Below are positions 34,840 to 42,126 of a stretch of DNA of 64,000 bases, piece by piece. Origin of the DNA: Streptomyces sp. SPB162 (GTDB lineage: Bacteria > Actinomycetota > Actinomycetes > Streptomycetales > Streptomycetaceae). The notes beneath the pieces were generated by a model. That model was not told where the DNA came from, made no database searches, and saw only the letters and a list, made by a program, of their open reading frames with translations. Made by a program: the position numbers and the translations under genes. The stretch covers positions 2,950,501 through 3,014,500 of the forward strand of contig NZ_JAQFII010000001.1 of the NCBI RefSeq assembly GCF_029504575.1, read 5' to 3'. Every line of letters begins with the position of its first letter. Positions within the stretch are counted from its first letter, which is position 1.

Positions 34840-36054
34840 CTAGGAGGGGGGTCTGAGGCCACTCAATACTTCCCTGGCCTCCGCCACCGCCGCGTCGGAG
34901 GGCCCCGAGGGGGCCGAGCCGCCGTTCACCTTCAGGTCCGGTTCGATGCCCCGGCCGTCCACGTTCCGCCCGTCGGGCAGGCTGTAGTGGCCGACGGTCA
35001 GCTCGGCGACCGAGCCGTCCGGCAGTTCGCTGGGCATCTGCACCGAGCCCTTGCCGAAGGTCCGCGAGCCGATCACGACCGCCCGGCCGCGGTCCTGCAG
35101 CGCACCCGCGAGCAGCTCCGCGGCGCTCATGGTGCCGCCGTCGACGACGGCCACCAGCGGCGTCTCGGTGTCGCCGCCGTCCTTGGCGTAGAGGGCGCGC
35201 TGGCGGCCGTGCACGTCGTAGGTGGCGACGAGGCCGCCGTCGAGGAAGACCGAGGACACGGTGACGGCCTCGGTGACCAGACCGCCGGAGTTTCCGCGCA
35301 GATCCAGCAGCACGCCCCGGCTGCCGGCGCGCACCGCGGCCCGCACCGCGGCCCGCACCTGGCCGCCGACGCCCTTGGTGAACGCCTCGATCTTGATGGA
35401 GGTGACGTCCCCCTCCAGTTTCCCGACGGTGACGGCCTCGGTGGCCAGCACCTCGCGACGCAGCGTGATGTCGCGGTCACCGGAACGCGGGTCGGCCGCA
35501 CCGCCGTCGTGGTCCAGCCCGAGCCGCACGACGGACCCGGCGACGTTGTCGCCGCGCAGTTCCGCCACGACCTCCGTGACCGCCTTGCCGTCCGCTCGCA
35601 CCCCGTCGATCGACCGGAGCCGGTCGCCGACCCGCACCCCCGCGAGCGCCGCGGGGCTGCCGGCCTGCACCCGGGCCACCTGGATCCAGCCGTTGCCGGT
35701 GCGCCGCACCCATATCCCGACGCCCACGTAGCGGCCGTCCAGGGCCTGTTGCAGGCCCGCGTACTCCTGGGCGGTGTAGAACGACGACCAGCGGTCGCCG
35801 CTGCGGCTGACCAGCTCTTGAGCGGCTTCCGGGCCGACCTTGCCGTCGTCGATCGCCTTCGCGATCGCGTCGGAGTCGGCGACGTTGCCCGCCGGAATCC
35901 TCGCCTGCGCCGCCGACGCGGACGGGGCGGGAACCGTCAGCGTGACGCCCGCCGCGCCGGTGGCCACCATCGCGCCGAGGCTGACCCACAGGAACGTCAG
36001 GGCGACCCCGCGGCGTGCGCCGCGGGGCGTCCCGAACATCAACCGGCCGGACAT
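34840..36054 (-). CDS. S41 family C-terminal processing peptidase
   Basis: A 404-residue exported serine protease. The N-terminal membrane segment (VALTFLWVSLGAMVATGAAGV) acts as a signal or anchor. A PDZ domain at about residues 100-175 has the binding loop GVGIWVRR. The catalytic Ser310 is in GGTMSAAELLAGAL and the Lys335 in GSRTFGKGSVQ. It lies between ftsX and smpB with short gaps, the usual neighbourhood in Streptomyces and relatives. Its substrates are unknown; a role in envelope protein turnover is inferred. Confidence 0.9.
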   Translation of the reverse strand: MSGRLMFGTPRGARRGVALTFLWVSLGAMVATGAAGVTLTVPAPSASAAQARIPAGNVADSDAIAKAIDDGKVGPEAAQELVSRSGDRWSSFYTAQEYAGLQQALDGRYVGVGIWVRRTGNGWIQVARVQAGSPAALAGVRVGDRLRSIDGVRADGKAVTEVVAELRGDNVAGSVVRLGLDHDGGAADPRSGDRDITLRREVLATEAVTVGKLEGDVTSIKIEAFTKGVGGQVRAAVRAAVRAGSRGVLLDLRGNSGGLVTEAVTVSSVFLDGGLVATYDVHGRQRALYAKDGGDTETPLVAVVDGGTMSAAELLAGALQDRGRAVVIGSRTFGKGSVQMPSELPDGSVAELTVGHYSLPDGRNVDGRGIEPDLKVNGGSAPSGPSDAAVAEAREVLSGLRPPS

Positions 36055-36121
36055 GGCGGGAAGTCTAGGCCAGAAACGGGCGCCATACGGAGAGTTGACC
36101 GCAGACCACCCGAAGCGGCAC

Positions 36122-37039
36122 TCACACCTTGAGGTATTTACGGAGCGTGACCAGGGCCGCGAGGGAGGGCATCAGGATGCTGCAGACCAGCACCAGCGGC
36201 AACACCTTGATGACGTCGCCCCAGCCGAGGAAGTGCACCAGCGGGATCTTGTCCTGCAGCTTCAGACCGTGGTCGATGAGCATGTACCGGCCGGCCATCA
36301 GCATGCCGCAGGCCACCCCGCCGCCGACGAGTCCGGCGAAGGCCGCCTCGGCGATGAACGGCATCTGGATGTAGAAGCCCGACGCGCCCACCAGGCGCAT
36401 GATGCCGGTCTCCCGCCGTCGGCTGAACGCCGAGACGCGCACGGTGTTGATGATCAGCAGCATCGCGACGATCACCATGAAGACCATGGTCCCGAACGCC
36501 ATCCACGTCATGCCGCCGAGCAGGTCGAAGAGGTTCTTCAGCAACTTGCGCTGGTCCTGCACCTCCTGGACGCCCGGACGGCCGGCGAAGGCGCTGGAGA
36601 CGACCTGGACCTTCGTCGGGTCCTTGAGCTTGACGCGGTACGACTCCTGCAACTGGTCAGGAGAGAGGGACCCGGCGACCGGCGAGTCCTTGAACTGCTC
36701 CTGGTAGTGGGTGTACGCCTCCTGCGCGGACTCGTAGTACACCTTCTCGACGACCGGAAGCTTCTCCAGGTCGGTCTTGATCGCCTTCTTCTGCTCGTCC
36801 GTGACGGCGCCCTTGGAGCACGAAGGGGTGCTCTTCACGTCCGCCTTGTTGCAGAGGAAGATCGACACCTGGACCTTGTCGTACCAGTACCCCTTCATGG
36901 CGTCGACCTGCTGACTGGCGAGCCAGGCTCCACCGGCCAGGGCGAGCGACAGGGCGACGGAGATGATCACCGCGAAGGTCATGGTGAGATTGCGCCGGAG
37001 ACCGACGCCGATCTCCGACAGGACGAACTGGGCGCGCAT
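36122..37039 (-). CDS. ftsX: Cell division protein FtsX (permease-like)
   Basis: A 305-residue membrane protein that, with FtsE, controls peptidoglycan hydrolases. A first helix near residues 20-45 is followed by an extracellular domain of about 130 residues (YWYDKVQVSIFLCNKADV; YYESAQEAYTHYQEQF) and then three further helices with the FtsX/MacB core (MTWMAFGTMVFMVIVAMLLI). Two cysteines in the outer domain (CNKADVKSTPSC) could pair. ATG 37039 is 54 bp after the ftsE stop, so both are probably one transcript. Confidence 0.94.
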   Translation of the reverse strand: MRAQFVLSEIGVGLRRNLTMTFAVIISVALSLALAGGAWLASQQVDAMKGYWYDKVQVSIFLCNKADVKSTPSCSKGAVTDEQKKAIKTDLEKLPVVEKVYYESAQEAYTHYQEQFKDSPVAGSLSPDQLQESYRVKLKDPTKVQVVSSAFAGRPGVQEVQDQRKLLKNLFDLLGGMTWMAFGTMVFMVIVAMLLIINTVRVSAFSRRRETGIMRLVGASGFYIQMPFIAEAAFAGLVGGGVACGMLMAGRYMLIDHGLKLQDKIPLVHFLGWGDVIKVLPLVLVCSILMPSLAALVTLRKYLKV

Positions 37040-37093
37040 GATGTCCTTTCAGGGGGCTGGTGGCTATGACTACGGAACGGAACCCGGTTCGGT

Positions 37094-37783
37094 TCAGTGC
37101 TGGTAGCCGTAGACACCGCGCGACTGGTCGCGCACCAGTCGCCCCTTCTCGAGCTCGATGACGCGCTTGCGCATCTGGTCGACGATGTTCTGGTCGTGGG
37201 TGGCCATCACCACGGTGGTCCCGGTGCGGTTGATGCGGTCCAGGAGCCGCATGATGCCGACCGAGGTCTGCGGGTCGAGGTTTCCCGTCGGTTCGTCCGC
37301 GATCAGCAGCATCGGCCGGTTGACGAACGCTCGGGCGATGGCCACGCGCTGCTGCTCACCACCCGACAGCTCCCCCGGCATGCGGTCTTCCTTGCCGGCC
37401 AGGCCGACCAGGTCCAGCACCTCGGGGACCGTCTTGCGGATCGTCCCGCGCGGCTTGCCGATCACTTCCAGCGCGAACGCCACGTTCTCCGCGACGGTCT
37501 TGTTGGGGAGCAGGCGGAAGTCCTGGAAGACCGTGCCCAGCTGGCGCCGCATCTGCGGCACCTTCCAGTTGGAGAGCCTCGCCAGATCCTTGCCCAGGAC
37601 GTGCACCATGCCGGTGTCCGTGCGCTCCTCGCGCAGGATCAACCGGAGGAACGTCGACTTTCCGGACCCCGAAGAACCGACGAGGAAGACGAACTCGCCC
37701 TTCTCGATCTCCAGCGAGACATCCCGAAGTGCAGGACGGTTCTGCTTGGGGTAGGTCTTGGTGACGCTGTCGAATCGGATCAC
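37094..37783 (-). CDS. ftsE: Cell division ATP-binding protein FtsE
   Basis: A 229-residue ABC ATPase partnering FtsX. Walker [10 protein letters not shown] (residues 36-44), the signature LSGGEQQR, Walker [14 protein letters not shown] and the switch His in VVMATHDQ are all intact. GTG 37783 ([12 protein letters not shown]) gives exactly the usual length. First gene of the ftsE-ftsX-S41 protease-smpB-ssrA run. The upstream 270 bp are divergent to a small membrane-protein gene. Confidence 0.95.
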
Positions 37784-38055
37784 GTTCGCACCAGTGAGGT
37801 AGCCGGATATTGGGGGCGGACAACCGCAGGGGCGGCTCTCCTGGTGTGGGCGACCATACGCGAACGGCACAGGGGCGCGCAGTCCGCGTCCCGGGTTCGT
37901 GGGTTTACGCACGGGGCACTGGGGGACAAACCAGGCATCAGGGCCAACGCCTCACTCTGTGAAATCATGCGAGGCGCGCCGATTCCGCCCGAAGCTGGCA
38001 CAGTGGAGGAACCGAACGGCCCAATGGAGCGTTCACCGGCCGAGGAGGAGATCGC

Positions 38056-38244
38056 ATGACATCCGACCGACTGGTGTGCGCGAACTGTGCCGGCCCCGTC
38101 AGCGAGGGCCGCTGCGCGGTCTGCCGCGCCAACCGCGCCCGCCTCCAGCAGGAGAACCCCTGGTCGGCCCTGAGCCCGGCCGCCCTCATCGCGCTCCTGG
38201 TGGCCCTACTGGCCGTCGTCCTGGTCGTAGAACACGCCACCTGA
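38056..38244 (+). CDS. Small membrane protein with a zinc-ribbon-like N-terminus
   Basis: A 62-residue protein of unknown function. It has four cysteines in two CxxC/CxxxC-type pairs (VCANCAGPVSEGRCAVCRAN) like a zinc ribbon, then one membrane helix (AALIALLVALLAVVLVVEH). A strong GAGGAGGAG site precedes ATG 38056. Similar small proteins are found near ftsEX in Streptomyces. It is divergent from ftsE and its 3' side opens onto the repeat block. Confidence 0.75.
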   Translation: MTSDRLVCANCAGPVSEGRCAVCRANRARLQQENPWSALSPAALIALLVALLAVVLVVEHAT

Positions 38245-38264
38245 GCGGGCACGCCGCGTCAGCG

Positions 38265-38345
38265 GCGTATATAGGCGACGTACATAGCGTATCGAGCGGC
38301 GCACATAGACGTATGTAATGCATTTATATGCATGTATACGTAGGG
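38265..38345. other. AT-rich patch with overlapping small palindromes
   Basis: About 80 bp rich in TATA, GTAT and ACAT words, unlike anything else in the window. It includes ACATAGACGTATGT (38303-38316, ACATA/TATGT arms) and ATGCATTTATATGCAT (38318-38333, ATGCAT twice). It lies between the small membrane-protein gene and the first long repeat. It could be an origin-like, promoter-like or recombination site. Confidence 0.55.
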
Positions 38346-38396
38346 GCCACCACGCCCCTCCCGAGGCGGCGCTCCGTGAAGCGGCGGGATCCGGGG

Positions 38397-38816
38397 CCGG
38401 AGTTCAGGCGGTGTGGAGCGTGCGTCTGCGGGCGGAGGGGGGCCCGGCGCTGCGCGCCTGCCAGCGGAGCGGTTCGCTGCGCTCCCTCGCCGGGTGGCAA
38501 GGTAGAGCGGTTGGGCGGCGAGGCCCGGCGGGAGCGGGGCCGAAGTTCAGGCGATGCGAAGGGGTACGTCTGCGGCGCTGCGCACCTTGACCGGGCGGAG
38601 GGGGAGGCCCGGCGCTGCGCGCCTGCCAGCGGAACGGTTCGCTGCGCTCCCTCGCCGGGTGGCGAGGTAGAGCGGTTGCCCGGCGGGAGCGGGGCCGAAG
38701 TTCAGGCGATGCGAAGGGGTACGTCTGCGGCGCTGCGCACCTTGACCGGGCGGAGGGGGAAGCCCGGCGCTGCGCGCCTGCCAGCGGAACGGTTCGCTGC
38801 GCTCCCTCGCCGGGTG
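38397..38816 (+). repeat. Long intergenic repeat, three copies in direct orientation
   Basis: Copies start with AGTTCAGGCG at 38401, 38544 and 38699. The second and third are 155 bp apart and differ at about two positions over 119 bp (38543-38661 and 38698-38816). The first is more diverged and lacks the CGCTGCGCACCTTGAC block. Each copy includes GGGCGGAGGGG, GCGCTGCGCGCCTGCCAG and TTCGCTGCGCTCC. The palindromic core GCGCTGCGCGCC could form small hairpins. Confidence 0.85.
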
Positions 38817-38959
38817 ATGGGGTGCTTCGGGCGGGAGGCGCACTGCGGAAGGCGTCCTGGGGTGCGGGGCGTGCTTTTAATCCCCCCTTCCCGCCGAGAA
38901 GTGCAACCCGTGGGACTGGGAGTGCCTGGTGGGGCGGGTGAGGCGGGTTCTTGGCCCAT

Positions 38960-39022
38960 GTGGATCACTAGAGACGGCCAGAACTCCGCATAGCGGTACT
39001 GCGGCCACCCGAGGTGATCCAC
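38960..39022. repeat. Central inverted repeat between the repeat arms
   Basis: GTGGATCAC (38960-38968) pairs with GTGATCCAC (39014-39022). Inside, CCGCATAGCGG and GTACTGCGG can form further pairs, so a compact structured RNA or DNA element is possible. It lies roughly midway between the direct and inverted copies of the long repeat. Confidence 0.6.
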
Positions 39023-39055
39023 TCGCAACAGCCGAGGCCCCAGCAGCCGCACATT

Positions 39056-39363
39056 CCAACCGCTCCACCCCACCACCCGGCCGGGGAGCGCAGCGAACCC
39101 CTTCACTGGCAGGCGCGCAGCGCCGGAGCCTCCCCCCTCCGCCCGGTCAAGGTGCGCAGCACCGCAGACGCACCACTCCACACCGCCTGAACTCCAGCCC
39201 CGACCCCGCCGAATCCCGCCGACCAACCGCTCCACCCCACCACCCGGCCGGGGAGCGCAGCGAACCCCTTCACTGGCAGGCGCGCAGCGCCGGAGCCCCC
39301 CCTCCGCCCGGTCAAGGTGCGCAGCACCGCAGACGCACCCCTTCGCATCGCCTGAACTCCAGC
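39056..39363 (-). repeat. Long intergenic repeat, two copies in reverse orientation
   Basis: Two copies of the same element, on the opposite strand, at about 39056-39197 and 39224-39363 (165 bp apart). They share CCTTGACCGGGCGGAGG, GCGCTGCGCGCCTGCCAG and TTCGCTGCGCTCC with the direct copies but carry their own variants (AGTGAAGGGG in place of AGCGGAACGG; CCGGCCGGGTGGTGGGG). The two reverse copies resemble each other more than they resemble the direct ones, so each side seems to have duplicated separately. Confidence 0.85.
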
Positions 39364-39414
39364 CCCACTCCCCGGCATCGGCGCGCAGCGGCCAAGGCAC
39401 GCACGGCGGGACGG

Positions 39415-39885
39415 CTACGCCGCCACGGCCAGCGTGAACCACACTCCTTTGCCCTCCCCCGCGACCGGCCCCAGCGGCGCGCCCCGGACCGTGCCCCAGT
39501 CGTCCGCCAGAGCGGCAACCAGGACCAGACCTCGACCCCCCTCGTCCTCGCCGCGCTCCGCGCGCTCTCCGGCGCCGACGACGGGCGGTTCCGGCGTCCC
39601 GTCGTAGATGGTGATCCGCACGTACGCCGCCTCCACCGCGAGCCACAGCAACGACCCGACGCCCTTGGCGTGTTGGTACGCGTTGGTGATCAGCTCGGAC
39701 GCGCACACTGCCGCCACGTCGACGAGTTGGTGCAACCCGAGCGCCCGCAGCACGGAGGCGACGAAGTCGCGGCCGATGCGGGGTGAGGTGATCAGCGGCG
39801 GACAGAACAGCGTGTAGGAGTGCGGCGTCGCGGCATAGCCGTGGGGAGGCGGCCAGGTGACGGCGGCAGGGGTCTGCGGGTTCAT
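39415..39885 (-). CDS. RsbW-like ATP-binding protein (HATPase_c)
   Basis: A 156-residue anti-sigma-factor-type GHKL ATPase. The N box ASELITNAYQHAK and the G1/G2 region (RITIYDGTPEPP, EGGRGLVLVAALADDWG) are present. Such proteins occur by the hundred in Streptomyces, usually next to an XRE/DUF5753 regulator and a DUF397 protein, as here (the latter two divergent). The role is regulatory; whether it phosphorylates a partner or binds it is unknown. It borders the repeat block directly. Confidence 0.86.
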   Translation of the reverse strand: MNPQTPAAVTWPPPHGYAATPHSYTLFCPPLITSPRIGRDFVASVLRALGLHQLVDVAAVCASELITNAYQHAKGVGSLLWLAVEAAYVRITIYDGTPEPPVVGAGERAERGEDEGGRGLVLVAALADDWGTVRGAPLGPVAGEGKGVWFTLAVAA

Positions 39886-40145
39886 GGAACGTCTCGACTT
39901 CCGTTACGAGGACCGAATCCGAGCGGCCGGTGGCAATGCCCCTCGCCGAGGCGAGCGGTGCGCTTCCGCCGCGCGGGCGGGGGAGTTGAAGCAGCGGACG
40001 ACCCTCCGCCGTTGCTGTGAGTTACGCCACAGACTCTAGGGGTAACAGGTGATACGTATCAACTGTTTCCACATACTCGCCCAGACCGCCTTGGACCACA
40101 CCCGCTGAGGCGGCAGACTTTGCAGCGAGAAGAGGGAAGGACCGC

Positions 40146-40998
40146 ATGCCGCCGAGGATCAACCCCACTGCCCGCCAGGTCCGCCTCGGAACGGAGCTGC
40201 GTAAGCTGCGCGAGGCCGCCGGCGTCACCGCACGCGAAACCGCCGCACGCCTCAGCGCCAGTCACACGCAGGTCAGCCATATCGAATCGGGCCGTTTCGG
40301 AATCAGCGAAGGCCGGCTCCGCACGCTGGCCGCCTTCTACGTGTGCGATGACGCCGACCTCGTCGACGCTCTCGCGGCCATGGCGAACGAACGCGGCAAG
40401 GGCTGGTGGGAGGGGTATCGGGGCGTCCTCGTTCCTCAAGCGCTCGACCTCGCGGAGCTGGAACACCACGCCACGTCCCTGCGCACGCTCCAAGTGCTGC
40501 ACATTCCCGGCATCCTGCAGACGGAGGACCGGGTGCGCGCCGCCTTCGCCTACGTCAACCCGGATCTGCCCGGGGACGAACTCGAAGCCGAGGTCACCCA
40601 TCGCATACGGCGGCGCGAGGTGATCGAAGGCGAGGGAGCTCCCGCGTTCGAAGCCGTCGTCCACGAGGCCGCGTTGCGCATCAAGGTGGGTGGCGCGAAG
40701 TCGTCCCGGGCCCAGCTCGAACACATCCTGGCGCTGTCGGAACGGGACAACGTGACCGTCCGCGTCATCCCCTTCGACGTGGGACGACTTCGCCGGCGCG
40801 GGGTTCTCCATGCTCTACGCGGGCGGTGCGGTCCCGCCACTGGACACGGTCCAACTCGACACGGCCCATGGCAGCATCTTCCTCGATGCGGAAGCCCAGT
40901 TGAGGAAGTACCGCAGCCTCTTCGACCGCACCAGAGCCGCGTCCCTCTCCGCTGACGCGTCACGCGATTTCATCCACCGCATCGCGCGGGACATGTGA
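40146..40998 (+). CDS. XRE-family regulator with DUF5753 (WhiJ-like; interrupted by a +1 frameshift)
   Basis: The HTH lies in residues 15-70 (LRKLREAAGVTARETAARLS, ASHTQVSHIESGRFGISEGR), then the DUF5753 domain (LEHHATSLRTLQVLHIPGIL; VTVRVIPFDV). The frame is lost in the GGG at 40781-40783; removing one G joins VIPFDV to DDFAGAGFSMLYAGGAVPPL and LDTVQLDTAHGSIFLDAEAQ. The corrected length of 283 residues is typical. GAGGGAAGGA precedes ATG 40146. Its stop overlaps the start region of the DUF397 gene, so the two form an operon. WhiJ-type regulators influence Streptomyces development. Confidence 0.85.
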
Positions 40999-41009
40999 AA
41001 GGCAGAGCA

Positions 41010-41216
41010 GTGCCCTCATCGATCAGCTGGCAGAAGTCCTCGTTCTCCGGAGGCGCCCAGGGAAACGACTGCGTCGAACTCGGTATATCCGCCGCAGGTT
41101 TCCACCTGCGCGAGAGCGACGATCCGGAGGTGTTTCTCACCACCACCCCGGCGGCCCTCCGGGCCTTCCTCCACCGCATCAGGACGAGCACGCCCGCCCC
41201 GCGCCCGCCGCTCTAG
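41010..41216 (+). CDS. DUF397 protein
   Basis: A 68-residue small protein; the signature WQKSSFSGGAQGNDCVEL is typical of DUF397, partner of XRE/DUF5753 regulators. GTG 41010 (MPSSISWQKSS) is preferred because AAAGGCAGAG lies 7 bp upstream; GTG 40995 overlapping the preceding stop is an alternative. The Cys and downstream FLTTTPAALRAFLHRIR are conserved in the family. It probably acts with or against the upstream regulator, as in WhiJ/BldB systems; this is inferred from context. Confidence 0.83.
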   Translation: MPSSISWQKSSFSGGAQGNDCVELGISAAGFHLRESDDPEVFLTTTPAALRAFLHRIRTSTPAPRPPL

Positions 41217-41230
41217 CCACCGCAGACAGA

Positions 41231-41273
41231 AGAGGGGCCCGGAGCGCGCCGCCTGCGGGCTCCGGGCCCCTCT
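41231..41273. terminator. Bidirectional terminator DUF397 / sortase substrate
   Basis: A 15-bp perfect stem (AGAGGGGCCCGGAGC with its complement) and a 13-nt loop, placed 14 bp after the DUF397 stop and 30 bp after the convergent gene's stop. Confidence 0.8.
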
Positions 41274-41303
41274 TCGGGGTTCTATCTGCTACTGGCGGCC
41301 TTG

Positions 41304-41933
41304 TCAGGCAGCCGTGCGCCGGTTGGTGAGGCGCGGCATCATGCGGAAGCCGATGCCACCGGCGATCATCGTCGCGGCGCCGACCAGCAGGAAGGTGGTC
41401 TCGCCGGAACCGGTCTTGGCCAGCTCCTGGTTGGTGCTGCCCTGGGCCACGGGGATGGTGTTGTGGCTGTCGGTGCCGGTGTTGTTGCAGTCGACGCTGT
41501 CACCGGTGAGGGTGCAGGCGCCGGTGTCGCCACCGGTGGTGCCGGTGCCGTTGGACGGCGCCGCCGTGGTGGAGCTCGTCGACGGCTTGGTGGTGCCGGT
41601 CGTCGGCTTGGTGGTCGTCGGCTTGGTGGTGACCGGCGGAGTCGTCTGCCCCGGCGGAGTCGTCTTCGGCGGAGTCGTCTGGCTCGGCGGCGGGGTGGTC
41701 GTCGGCGGCGGGTCCGTCTTCGGCGGAGTCGTCTGGCTCGGCGGCGGGGTGGTGGTCGACGGCGGCGGGTCCGTCGGGGTGCCCGTGGTGGTCTCGCCGT
41801 CGCCGGGAGCGGCCACGGAAACGTCCACGGACACGGCCTGGGCCACGCCCACGGCTGTCATGGACGCGCCCGCGGCGATGACCGCGGCGGCGGCTATGCG
41901 CGCCAGGCGCAGCCGCGTGTTCTTCTTGCTCAT
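41304..41933 (-). CDS. LAXTG-type sortase-anchored surface protein
   Basis: A 209-residue wall-anchored protein. The signal peptide is MSKKNTRLRLARIAAAAV... to VAQA; then a Pro/Thr-rich stalk (residues 45-130) with PPPSQTTPPK repeats, a small region with two cysteines (ACTLTGDSVDC) and the sorting signal LAKTG (171-175) with a hydrophobic stretch and basic tail (RLTNRRTAA). LAXTG is the motif used by class E sortases in Streptomyces. The ligand or partner is unknown; the short folded part and long stalk suggest a display or spacer role. It precedes the prfB terminator and is monocistronic. Confidence 0.85.
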   Translation of the reverse strand: MSKKNTRLRLARIAAAAVIAAGASMTAVGVAQAVSVDVSVAAPGDGETTTGTPTDPPPSTTTPPPSQTTPPKTDPPPTTTPPPSQTTPPKTTPPGQTTPPVTTKPTTTKPTTGTTKPSTSSTTAAPSNGTGTTGGDTGACTLTGDSVDCNNTGTDSHNTIPVAQGSTNQELAKTGSGETTFLLVGAATMIAGGIGFRMMPRLTNRRTAA

Positions 41934-42126
41934 CTGGTAAGTACCCCCAGTAGCGGATCTCTGTAAGTGGAGCAGCTATGGACAGGACGGCAACTCACGT
42001 CCGCTCATACGCATGCCGCCCAACACCTTTCCCATAATCCTCGACAGCGTCAAGGTCATTCCAGCCGGAATGCCAGAATTGGGGTTGTTTGCCGGGCAGT
42101 TGTGTATGTGGCTGTGACATAAAAAT

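Follow-up and report, generated by a model that had tools for sequence, protein, structure and literature searches.

Several described systems resemble parts of the locus reported here. MITEs are short, non-coding and dispersed sequences with inverted ends, and the eukaryotic Foldback and Galileo elements are non-autonomous, with long inverted arms of variable tandem sub-repeats and a centre. BIME-gyrase sites are involved in handling supercoiling between convergent genes. In REP-rich genomes, according to the accessible part of PMC3733652, REP repeats are extragenic and palindromic, form inverted pairs and lie mostly between convergent or co-directional genes, with those of the CGTC type having stems of 8–9 bp and loops of 4–5 nt. 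Streptomyces telomeres present Palindromes II and III on the 3′ overhang, with GCA loops, sheared G:A closure and binding by Tap (PMC4513846, in excerpt). In phage N4, hairpins of the type C(GNA)G are extruded from DNA with a superhelical density of −0.035, and extrusion requires the C:G closing pair plus the loop G and A (excerpted text of PMC4496689).

The block studied here lies in the window, by which we mean the whole stretch of 64,000 nucleotides that was analysed, and is built from a unit of ~119 bp in three direct and two inverted copies around a conserved core of ~150 bp (38396–39364). We consider it reasonably probable that it belongs to a new, non-autonomous, foldback-type interspersed family with strand-specific DNA hairpins, whose members would be mobile. 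Like Foldback and Galileo, it has inverted arms of variable tandem sub-repeats (one to four units) around a centre; unlike them, it is bacterial, shorter than 1.4 kb and without a known transposase, and its hairpins lie inside the sub-repeats. It shares with MITEs that it is short, non-coding and dispersed with inverted ends, and differs from them in its multi-unit arms; no matching transposase was found, and the flanks have diverged too far for a target-site duplication to be read. The parts of the element and its neighbours, in window coordinates, are as follows.

38056–38244, plus strand: 62-aa ORF, left neighbour, directed at the element (ORF list; the stretch aligns in six relatives; no Pfam match)
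38276–39405, no strand: stretch without counterpart at the orthologous site of the relative G033 (not an exact insertion boundary)
38396–38488, plus strand: unit L1, outermost left, 24 bases shorter, first hairpin lost (nhmmer unit profile E 1e-11; alignment)
38538–38654, plus strand: unit L2, full length (nhmmer E 4e-29; 99.1% identity with L3)
38693–38809, plus strand: unit L3, full length (nhmmer E 5e-29)
38875–39023, plus strand: directional core of ~150 bp (profile match E 1e-36; alignment of 15 cores)
38960–38968, plus strand: left arm of the core inverted repeat, GTGGATCAC (read in the sequence; largely kept across the core alignment; hairpin in folding)
39014–39022, plus strand: right arm of the core inverted repeat, GTGATCCAC (read in the sequence; TGATC largely kept across the core alignment; folding)
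39079–39199, minus strand: unit R1, inner right (nhmmer E 3.6e-28)
39247–39364, minus strand: unit R2, outer right (nhmmer E 1.2e-28)
39415–39885, minus strand: HATPase_c_2 protein of a WhiJ-type triad, right neighbour, directed at the element (Pfam PF13581, E 3.9e-9)
40146–40955, plus strand: WhiJ-type regulator with HTH_31 and part of DUF5753 (Pfam)
40995–41216, plus strand: DUF397 (BldB-type) protein (PF04149 match at C1:2991525-2991683; ORF)

The arrangement of three direct and two inverted copies had been proposed in an earlier note on this DNA, and nhmmer recovers it at positions within tens of bases of those first given. Unit E values from 1e-11 to 4e-29, together with matches to the block in 14 further elements of the genome, place the repeats beyond chance. 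The centre has the inverted repeat of its own that the same note described (38960–38968 and 39014–39022), and the block does lack both gene and transposase between the ORF ends at 38244 and 39415. The idea that copies on one side are more alike stands for L2 and L3 (99.1% identity) and for R1 and R2 (94.2%), these units sharing 82–88% across the core, and fails for L1, which is merely 66–70% identical to every other unit. A hairpin followed by a T-run, terminator-like, lies directly ahead of the core at 38852–38872 (0.4 expected by chance).

Scattered copies, which the earlier note had suggested looking for, are present: 71 pieces of the organism's own genome match the block and resolve into 15 elements with the layout (units)n–core–(inverted units)m, all counts of elements and matches here being lower bounds. 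Units face inwards over a single core copy in every one of the 15, the core being in plus orientation in seven and minus in eight, and the nhmmer unit profile finds one to four units per arm. All 15 elements are internal to contig C1, and the unit matches listed for this genome all fall inside them. Among 37 own units, mean identity is 0.899 within an arm (8 pairs), 0.812 between opposite arms (24 pairs) and 0.758 between elements (634 pairs); because units of the same arm are the more alike, arms appear to have been homogenised or expanded locally. A coding core was rejected, no frame being open in all 15 cores (one is open in seven) and each of the six having a stop in at least 8 of the 15 copies.

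Two features of placement were seen alongside this layout. Eleven of the 15 elements lie within 1.15 Mb of the 6.67-Mb contig (C1:2513000-3655000). E3187 and E3189 are ~1.2 kb apart with similar right arms (L037, 3559–6415), a pair that is a local duplication or conversion.

Every unit contains three short hairpins of the C(GNA)G triloop type; left arms have their GNA loops on the bottom strand, right arms on the top strand. Across an alignment of 65 units (40 from this genus and 25 from a second genus, taken as the bottom strand of the left arm), 188 of 195 hairpins have GNA loops (64, 60 and 64 of 65 for hairpins 1, 2 and 3) and 194 of 195 have a C:G closing pair (65, 65 and 64). One pair of hairpin 1 is G-C in 30 of the 40 units of this genus and C-G in all 25 of the second, and the pair next to it varies between C-G, T-G and T-A; the varying pair of hairpin 2 is C-G in 49 units, T-A in 11 and T-G in 3; hairpin 3 is poor, with 75% paired. 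Of all cells, 88.4% hold standard pairs (83.0 in shuffles), 51 cells have changed on both sides with pairing kept (22.6 ± 3.3 in shuffles) and the covariation score is 0.155 (0.085 in shuffles), with none of 500 shuffles reaching any of these values; much of this covariation is the split of the two genera, that is, few events counted often. Two of the five measures stand at shuffle level (5 both-side-changed pairs vs 4.6, and 13 pair types vs 12.2). Hairpins 1 and 2 together hold 28 wobble pairs vs 3 mirror A-C mismatches on the aligned strand, 20 of the 28 being a single state found in this genus.

In an alignment-free count, GNA triloop hairpins with 5-bp stems number 92 on the strand that is the bottom one of a left arm vs 8 on the other in the arms of the 15 elements, as copies of one unit rather than independent cases, and 54 vs 6 in the second genus. 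Their density is 9.1 per kb in the arms vs 0.58 in the rest of the window, and among 100 dinucleotide shuffles the average is 2.4 and the highest count 7. When triloops of any sequence are counted, the opposite strand is the higher (185 vs 112). A GNA loop faces a TNC loop, so the bias locates the GNA loops and is not proof of folding on one strand only. The hairpins have only a working likeness to those of the phage N4 early promoters, which extrude under mild supercoiling (PMC4496689, in part) and differ in being promoters for the virion polymerase.

The signal is one of many short hairpins, not of one large fold. Folding three whole units on both strands, as RNA and as DNA, gave results no better than shuffles (z −0.51 to +1.56), and the unit alignment within this genus contains compensatory changes at 0 of 17 pairs. 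Of the long cruciform or structured transcript suggested earlier, the cruciform potential survives at the level of small hairpins and the long transcript does not, the three units folding no better than shuffles; the check for structure conservation turned out negative in that covariation is absent within the genus. To a large structured non-coding RNA we give hardly any credence: the core of the window element has a slight folding advantage over its shuffles (z −0.94 and −1.82 as RNA) and 3 of 17 predicted core pairs have changed on both sides, but the units reach z +1.56, the covariation term is about zero (core 0.05, units −0.07), and Rfam, run against window 36000–42000, has no match in the block and yields only two microRNA chance matches outside it (E 0.28 and 0.46). 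Rfam, folding and covariation results alike leave this candidate unsupported.

The hairpin type points to a likeness with the Tap/Tpg-type telomeres of Streptomyces, which, as far as the source excerpt describes them, share GCA or GAA triloops closed by C:G, on a strand corresponding to the 3′ overhang, with the same polarity and, at four ends, similar density. Eleven contig ends of the same genus were fetched, seven were telomere-like by eye, and in the four in which hairpins were counted (330 bp each) GNA hairpins number 3, 4, 1 and 4 on the 3′-overhang strand vs 0, 1, 0 and 1 on the opposite strand. The near-universal GNA loops and C:G closing pairs of the arms (188 and 194 of 195) would suit GCA-type loops with a sheared G:A pair. 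One could accordingly imagine that the arms descend from Streptomyces telomeres, or are read by telomere machinery, the element being what the chromosome retains of a very small linear element whose two telomere-like ends point outwards. The matching hairpin type and polarity speak for this, and the plus-to-minus order of the units would fit the two ends of one linear molecule rather than an end-to-end fusion. Yet the arms have no sequence homology to the 11 contig ends (best nhmmer E 0.065), neither arms nor core matched among 72,556 plasmids, the hairpins of the element are spaced by unpaired sequence where those of telomeres are tightly packed, and no telomere is recognisable by eye at either contig's ends (C1, C2). 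We regard this telomere-derived reading, by descent or by shared machinery, as decidedly improbable; a telomere identified by homology was rejected, and the comparison is kept as a likeness in hairpin type. The elements further differ from telomeres in being multicopy facing pairs with a centre, and none of the 15 is the end of a linear replicon.

The foldback-type family that we favour extends to relatives, unevenly. A sequence-only model of the core matches at least 5 of the 35 genomes from the same genus (a second search, of 61 genomes, gave these five again) and at least 6 of 394 genomes across the family, the sixth being G138 with a weak match of 22 bits. The full layout is present in four species of the genus (the organism itself, G023, G027 and G033), and G004 has a partial one. 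Among 13 core-bearing loci in relatives, eight have units on both sides (L081–L084, L086–L088 and L091) and five are partial: L080 starts at a contig end, and L085, L089, L090 and L092 have a split core or are without one or both arms. A pattern scan of GTDB for the core matched only Streptomyces sp. H39-S7, on two contigs, with a pattern that fits 7 of the 15 own cores and so is not a census.

Two of these matches deserve a line each. At L092 (4176–6042, G033) an insert of 1.86 kb, containing ORFs of 156 and 246 aa, interrupts the core roughly halfway along. The 22-bit match of G138, which belongs to another genus of the family, lies at L093 (G138:C15:212695-212811), where nhmmer profiles find neither unit nor core.

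The arms reach further than the core. Their unit model matches at least 15 of the 394 family genomes, strongly only in the five core-bearing genomes and in two genomes of a second genus, G073 and G084; the other eight have one weak match apiece (22–30 bits). G073 and G084 hold at least 17 and at least 20 unit matches, with units facing each other, and 14 of their centres could be aligned as stretches of 119–182 bp made of palindromic arrays of TTGTC/GACAA boxes, none of which matches the core profile at E ≤ 1. The arms are thus common to two genera and the centres are not; the centre may act as a lineage-specific protein-binding dyad.

The full layout in four species, the partial one in G004 and the arms in two genomes of another genus led us to reject an assembly artefact, which the earlier note had named as a way of being wrong. 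A known repeat was another such possibility, and the sequence is without match in Rfam, in the 72,556 plasmids or, for the arms, in viral contigs, which were scanned for exact matches to the arm pattern; these plasmid and viral results also set aside a plasmid or phage origin. In the literature searched, which left most subscription papers outside, we found no description of such a repeat family, and it seems to be undescribed so far.

Comparison of orthologous sites shows that the element is present at some and absent at others, answering the earlier call for empty sites. At the window site, G033 retains the genes on either side as well as the WhiJ triad, but its two matches are 62 bp apart, compared with 1130 here, and these 62 bp contain a terminator-like hairpin of 11 pairs. 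G027 is missing both element and triad (70 bp between matches), and in G023 the HATPase gene has a fragment of one unit fused into it, which is a deletion remnant. At this site G004 contains a different insert, of ~1.5 kb (L097, G004:C172:8139-9637), with no unit match.

For the other 14 elements, the flanks were compared with four relatives, and three sites aligned; the results that follow are among the matches listed. The site of E2520 is empty in G004 (contiguous flanks) and in G027 (106 bp), that of E3187 is empty in G033 and G027 (contiguous flanks), and that of E3444 is empty in G023, with 140 bp against 141 expected without the element. Occupied orthologues were found by both flanks for E2581 in G023, E2743 in G027 and E2520 in G023, and by the right flank for E2581 in G027, E3299 in G023 and E6206 in G027; the remaining flanks gave single-sided, rearranged or low-complexity matches. 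Because the flanks have diverged, neither exact ends nor a target-site duplication can be read, what is seen is therefore presence or absence at sites rather than insertion base by base, and some of the empty sites may be losses; the direction of change, gain or loss, is accordingly inferred. Since several sites are common to different species, the activity of the elements may be old.

The genomes were also searched for Y1/RAYT transposases. REP, REPIN and BIME sequences with their RAYT transposases are similar in being extragenic, palindromic and arranged in inverted pairs, in so far as the consulted part of PMC3733652 describes them. They differ in size and build: the unit here is 100–120 bp with three hairpins of 3-nt loops, where theirs is 20–40 bp with one hairpin, and the element has tandem units in each arm, a conserved centre and about 15 copies. 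CGTC lies ahead of hairpin 1 in 38 of the 65 units, but the unit is not a 20–40-bp palindrome with a 5′ GTAG or CGTC tag. The Y1/RAYT transposase (PF01797) has no match in the own genome (G000) or in G027, G033, G073 and G084, and matches three times in G004, once in G023 and also in 5 of 29 genomes without the core. Missing from five of the seven carriers, REPIN/RAYT was rejected as the present motor. The element would work much as a REPIN or foldback element does, but departs from the REP/RAYT features tested and from two of the three telomere features tested. No autonomous partner was found, the own unit matches listed all lying in the 15 elements and several of the relatives being draft assemblies.

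For the foldback-type family, these observations can be combined in a provisional scheme. A trans-acting factor would read the arms as single-stranded or cruciform DNA hairpins; a helper enzyme encoded outside the element would serve its movement; and elements would spread through intergenic DNA by copying or by moving, settling in this genus mostly at the downstream ends of genes. Unit number would change by recombination between units, which would homogenise an arm and could sometimes delete neighbouring genes. A bolder version, which we hold to be quite unlikely, is a new class of mobile element that moves via telomere-type single-stranded DNA hairpins, with two outward arms and a small exchangeable centre, served by terminal-protein/Tap or another single-strand enzyme that is not of the Y1 type.

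One locus in a relative combines arms with a gene. At L105 (474–1687, G023) arms flank a 254-aa ORF, membrane-type by eye, and no core was found. The own element E6206 is without the gene present between the arms at L105, as if arm–arm recombination had removed it.

Where the elements sit among genes bears on a different explanation. Ten of the 15 own elements lie between convergent genes, five between co-directional genes and none between divergent genes (orientations from our own gene calls, with E4562 placed by DUF397 strands), whereas the same gene caller classes 7 of the window's 43 gaps as convergent (P about 2e-5). The element could on this account be a domesticated cis-site of gene ends, its symmetric arms forming a two-way terminator or a supercoiling site between convergent genes, with C(GNA)G hairpins that would extrude with torsion. 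The window element stands where G033 has its 11-pair terminator, many two-way transcript ends are recorded at the XRE/DUF397 pairs of S. clavuligerus (PMC8269248, partial text), and the N4 hairpins extrude at a superhelical density as mild as −0.035 (PMC4496689, partial text). However, the sole terminator-like site in 38000–39700 lies between L3 and the core, outside the arms (1 vs 0.4 in shuffles), the distribution is patchy, with 30 of 35 same-genus genomes lacking a core match among the matches listed, and the conserved directional core is left unexplained. Of the 14 loci classified in the second genus, moreover, 10 have co-directional genes on either side, two have convergent and two have divergent ones (orthologous loci counted twice), and at the orthologous pair L132/L131 an ORF starts 37 and 44 bp past the element. 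We judge a cis-site of gene ends to be an unlikely, though not negligible, account. The element's presence at gene ends and at the terminator site of G033 leaves room for a subsidiary part in transcription termination, and a foldback-type element may take over from the terminator between convergent genes, including at the ends of WhiJ-type clusters.

The neighbourhood of WhiJ/BldB-type genes recurs across the genome. The genome has 20 DUF397/DUF5753 clusters (one of them below the cut-off), and eight of the 15 own elements are no more than 1.5 kb away from such a cluster, where 0.21 would be expected (binomial P 9e-12, assuming even placement). In relatives, a WhiJ-type protein is present at all six of the 13 loci that were Pfam-scanned (L080, L082, L084, L085, L086 and L091), at L086 as the HATPase only. 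Both counts would fit an accessory part of WhiJ/BldB-type loci, such as an operator or boundary for the adjoining regulator. Against it, 7 of the 15 own elements have other neighbours (at five of them, enzymes, a regulator, a transporter and an FG-GAP protein), the second-genus elements have no WhiJ-type neighbours by our own gene calls, 12 of the 20 own clusters are without an element within 1.5 kb, and the triad is kept in G033 without one. In S. venezuelae, the repeats bound by WhiJ9 read CGxxCTCAAC (PMC10294661, as far as its excerpt goes), a motif that occurs on neither strand in any of the 15 elements. A dedicated role at these loci is thus very improbable.

Beyond the earlier note, the analysis adds the directional conserved core, the genome-wide association with WhiJ-type loci and the telomere-type hairpins. 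Streptomyces replicons are known to have such hairpins at their ends; the same design is found here inside the chromosome, as facing pairs, in two genera that have kept the arms and differ in the centres. Provided that the arms are read in single-stranded form, the family could offer a tractable route to the proteins that recognise such hairpins, to how a non-coding element spreads through genomes of high GC content when no Y1 transposase is present, and to why elements cluster at WhiJ/BldB-type loci in one genus. Should the elements be merely gene ends, they would still define an extragenic repeat family undescribed in the literature searched.

Two further observations concern the surroundings of the window element. 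A palindromic AT-rich stretch (acgtatgtaatgcatttatatgcatgtatacgta) lies at 38250–38360, between the 62-aa ORF and unit L1, and was not seen at the corresponding G033 and G023 sites. On the other side, DUF5753 is matched in two pieces at 40146–40998, over profile positions 3–115 and then, in another ORF, 122–178, and the copy of the WhiJ-type gene in the window may be frameshifted or misread.
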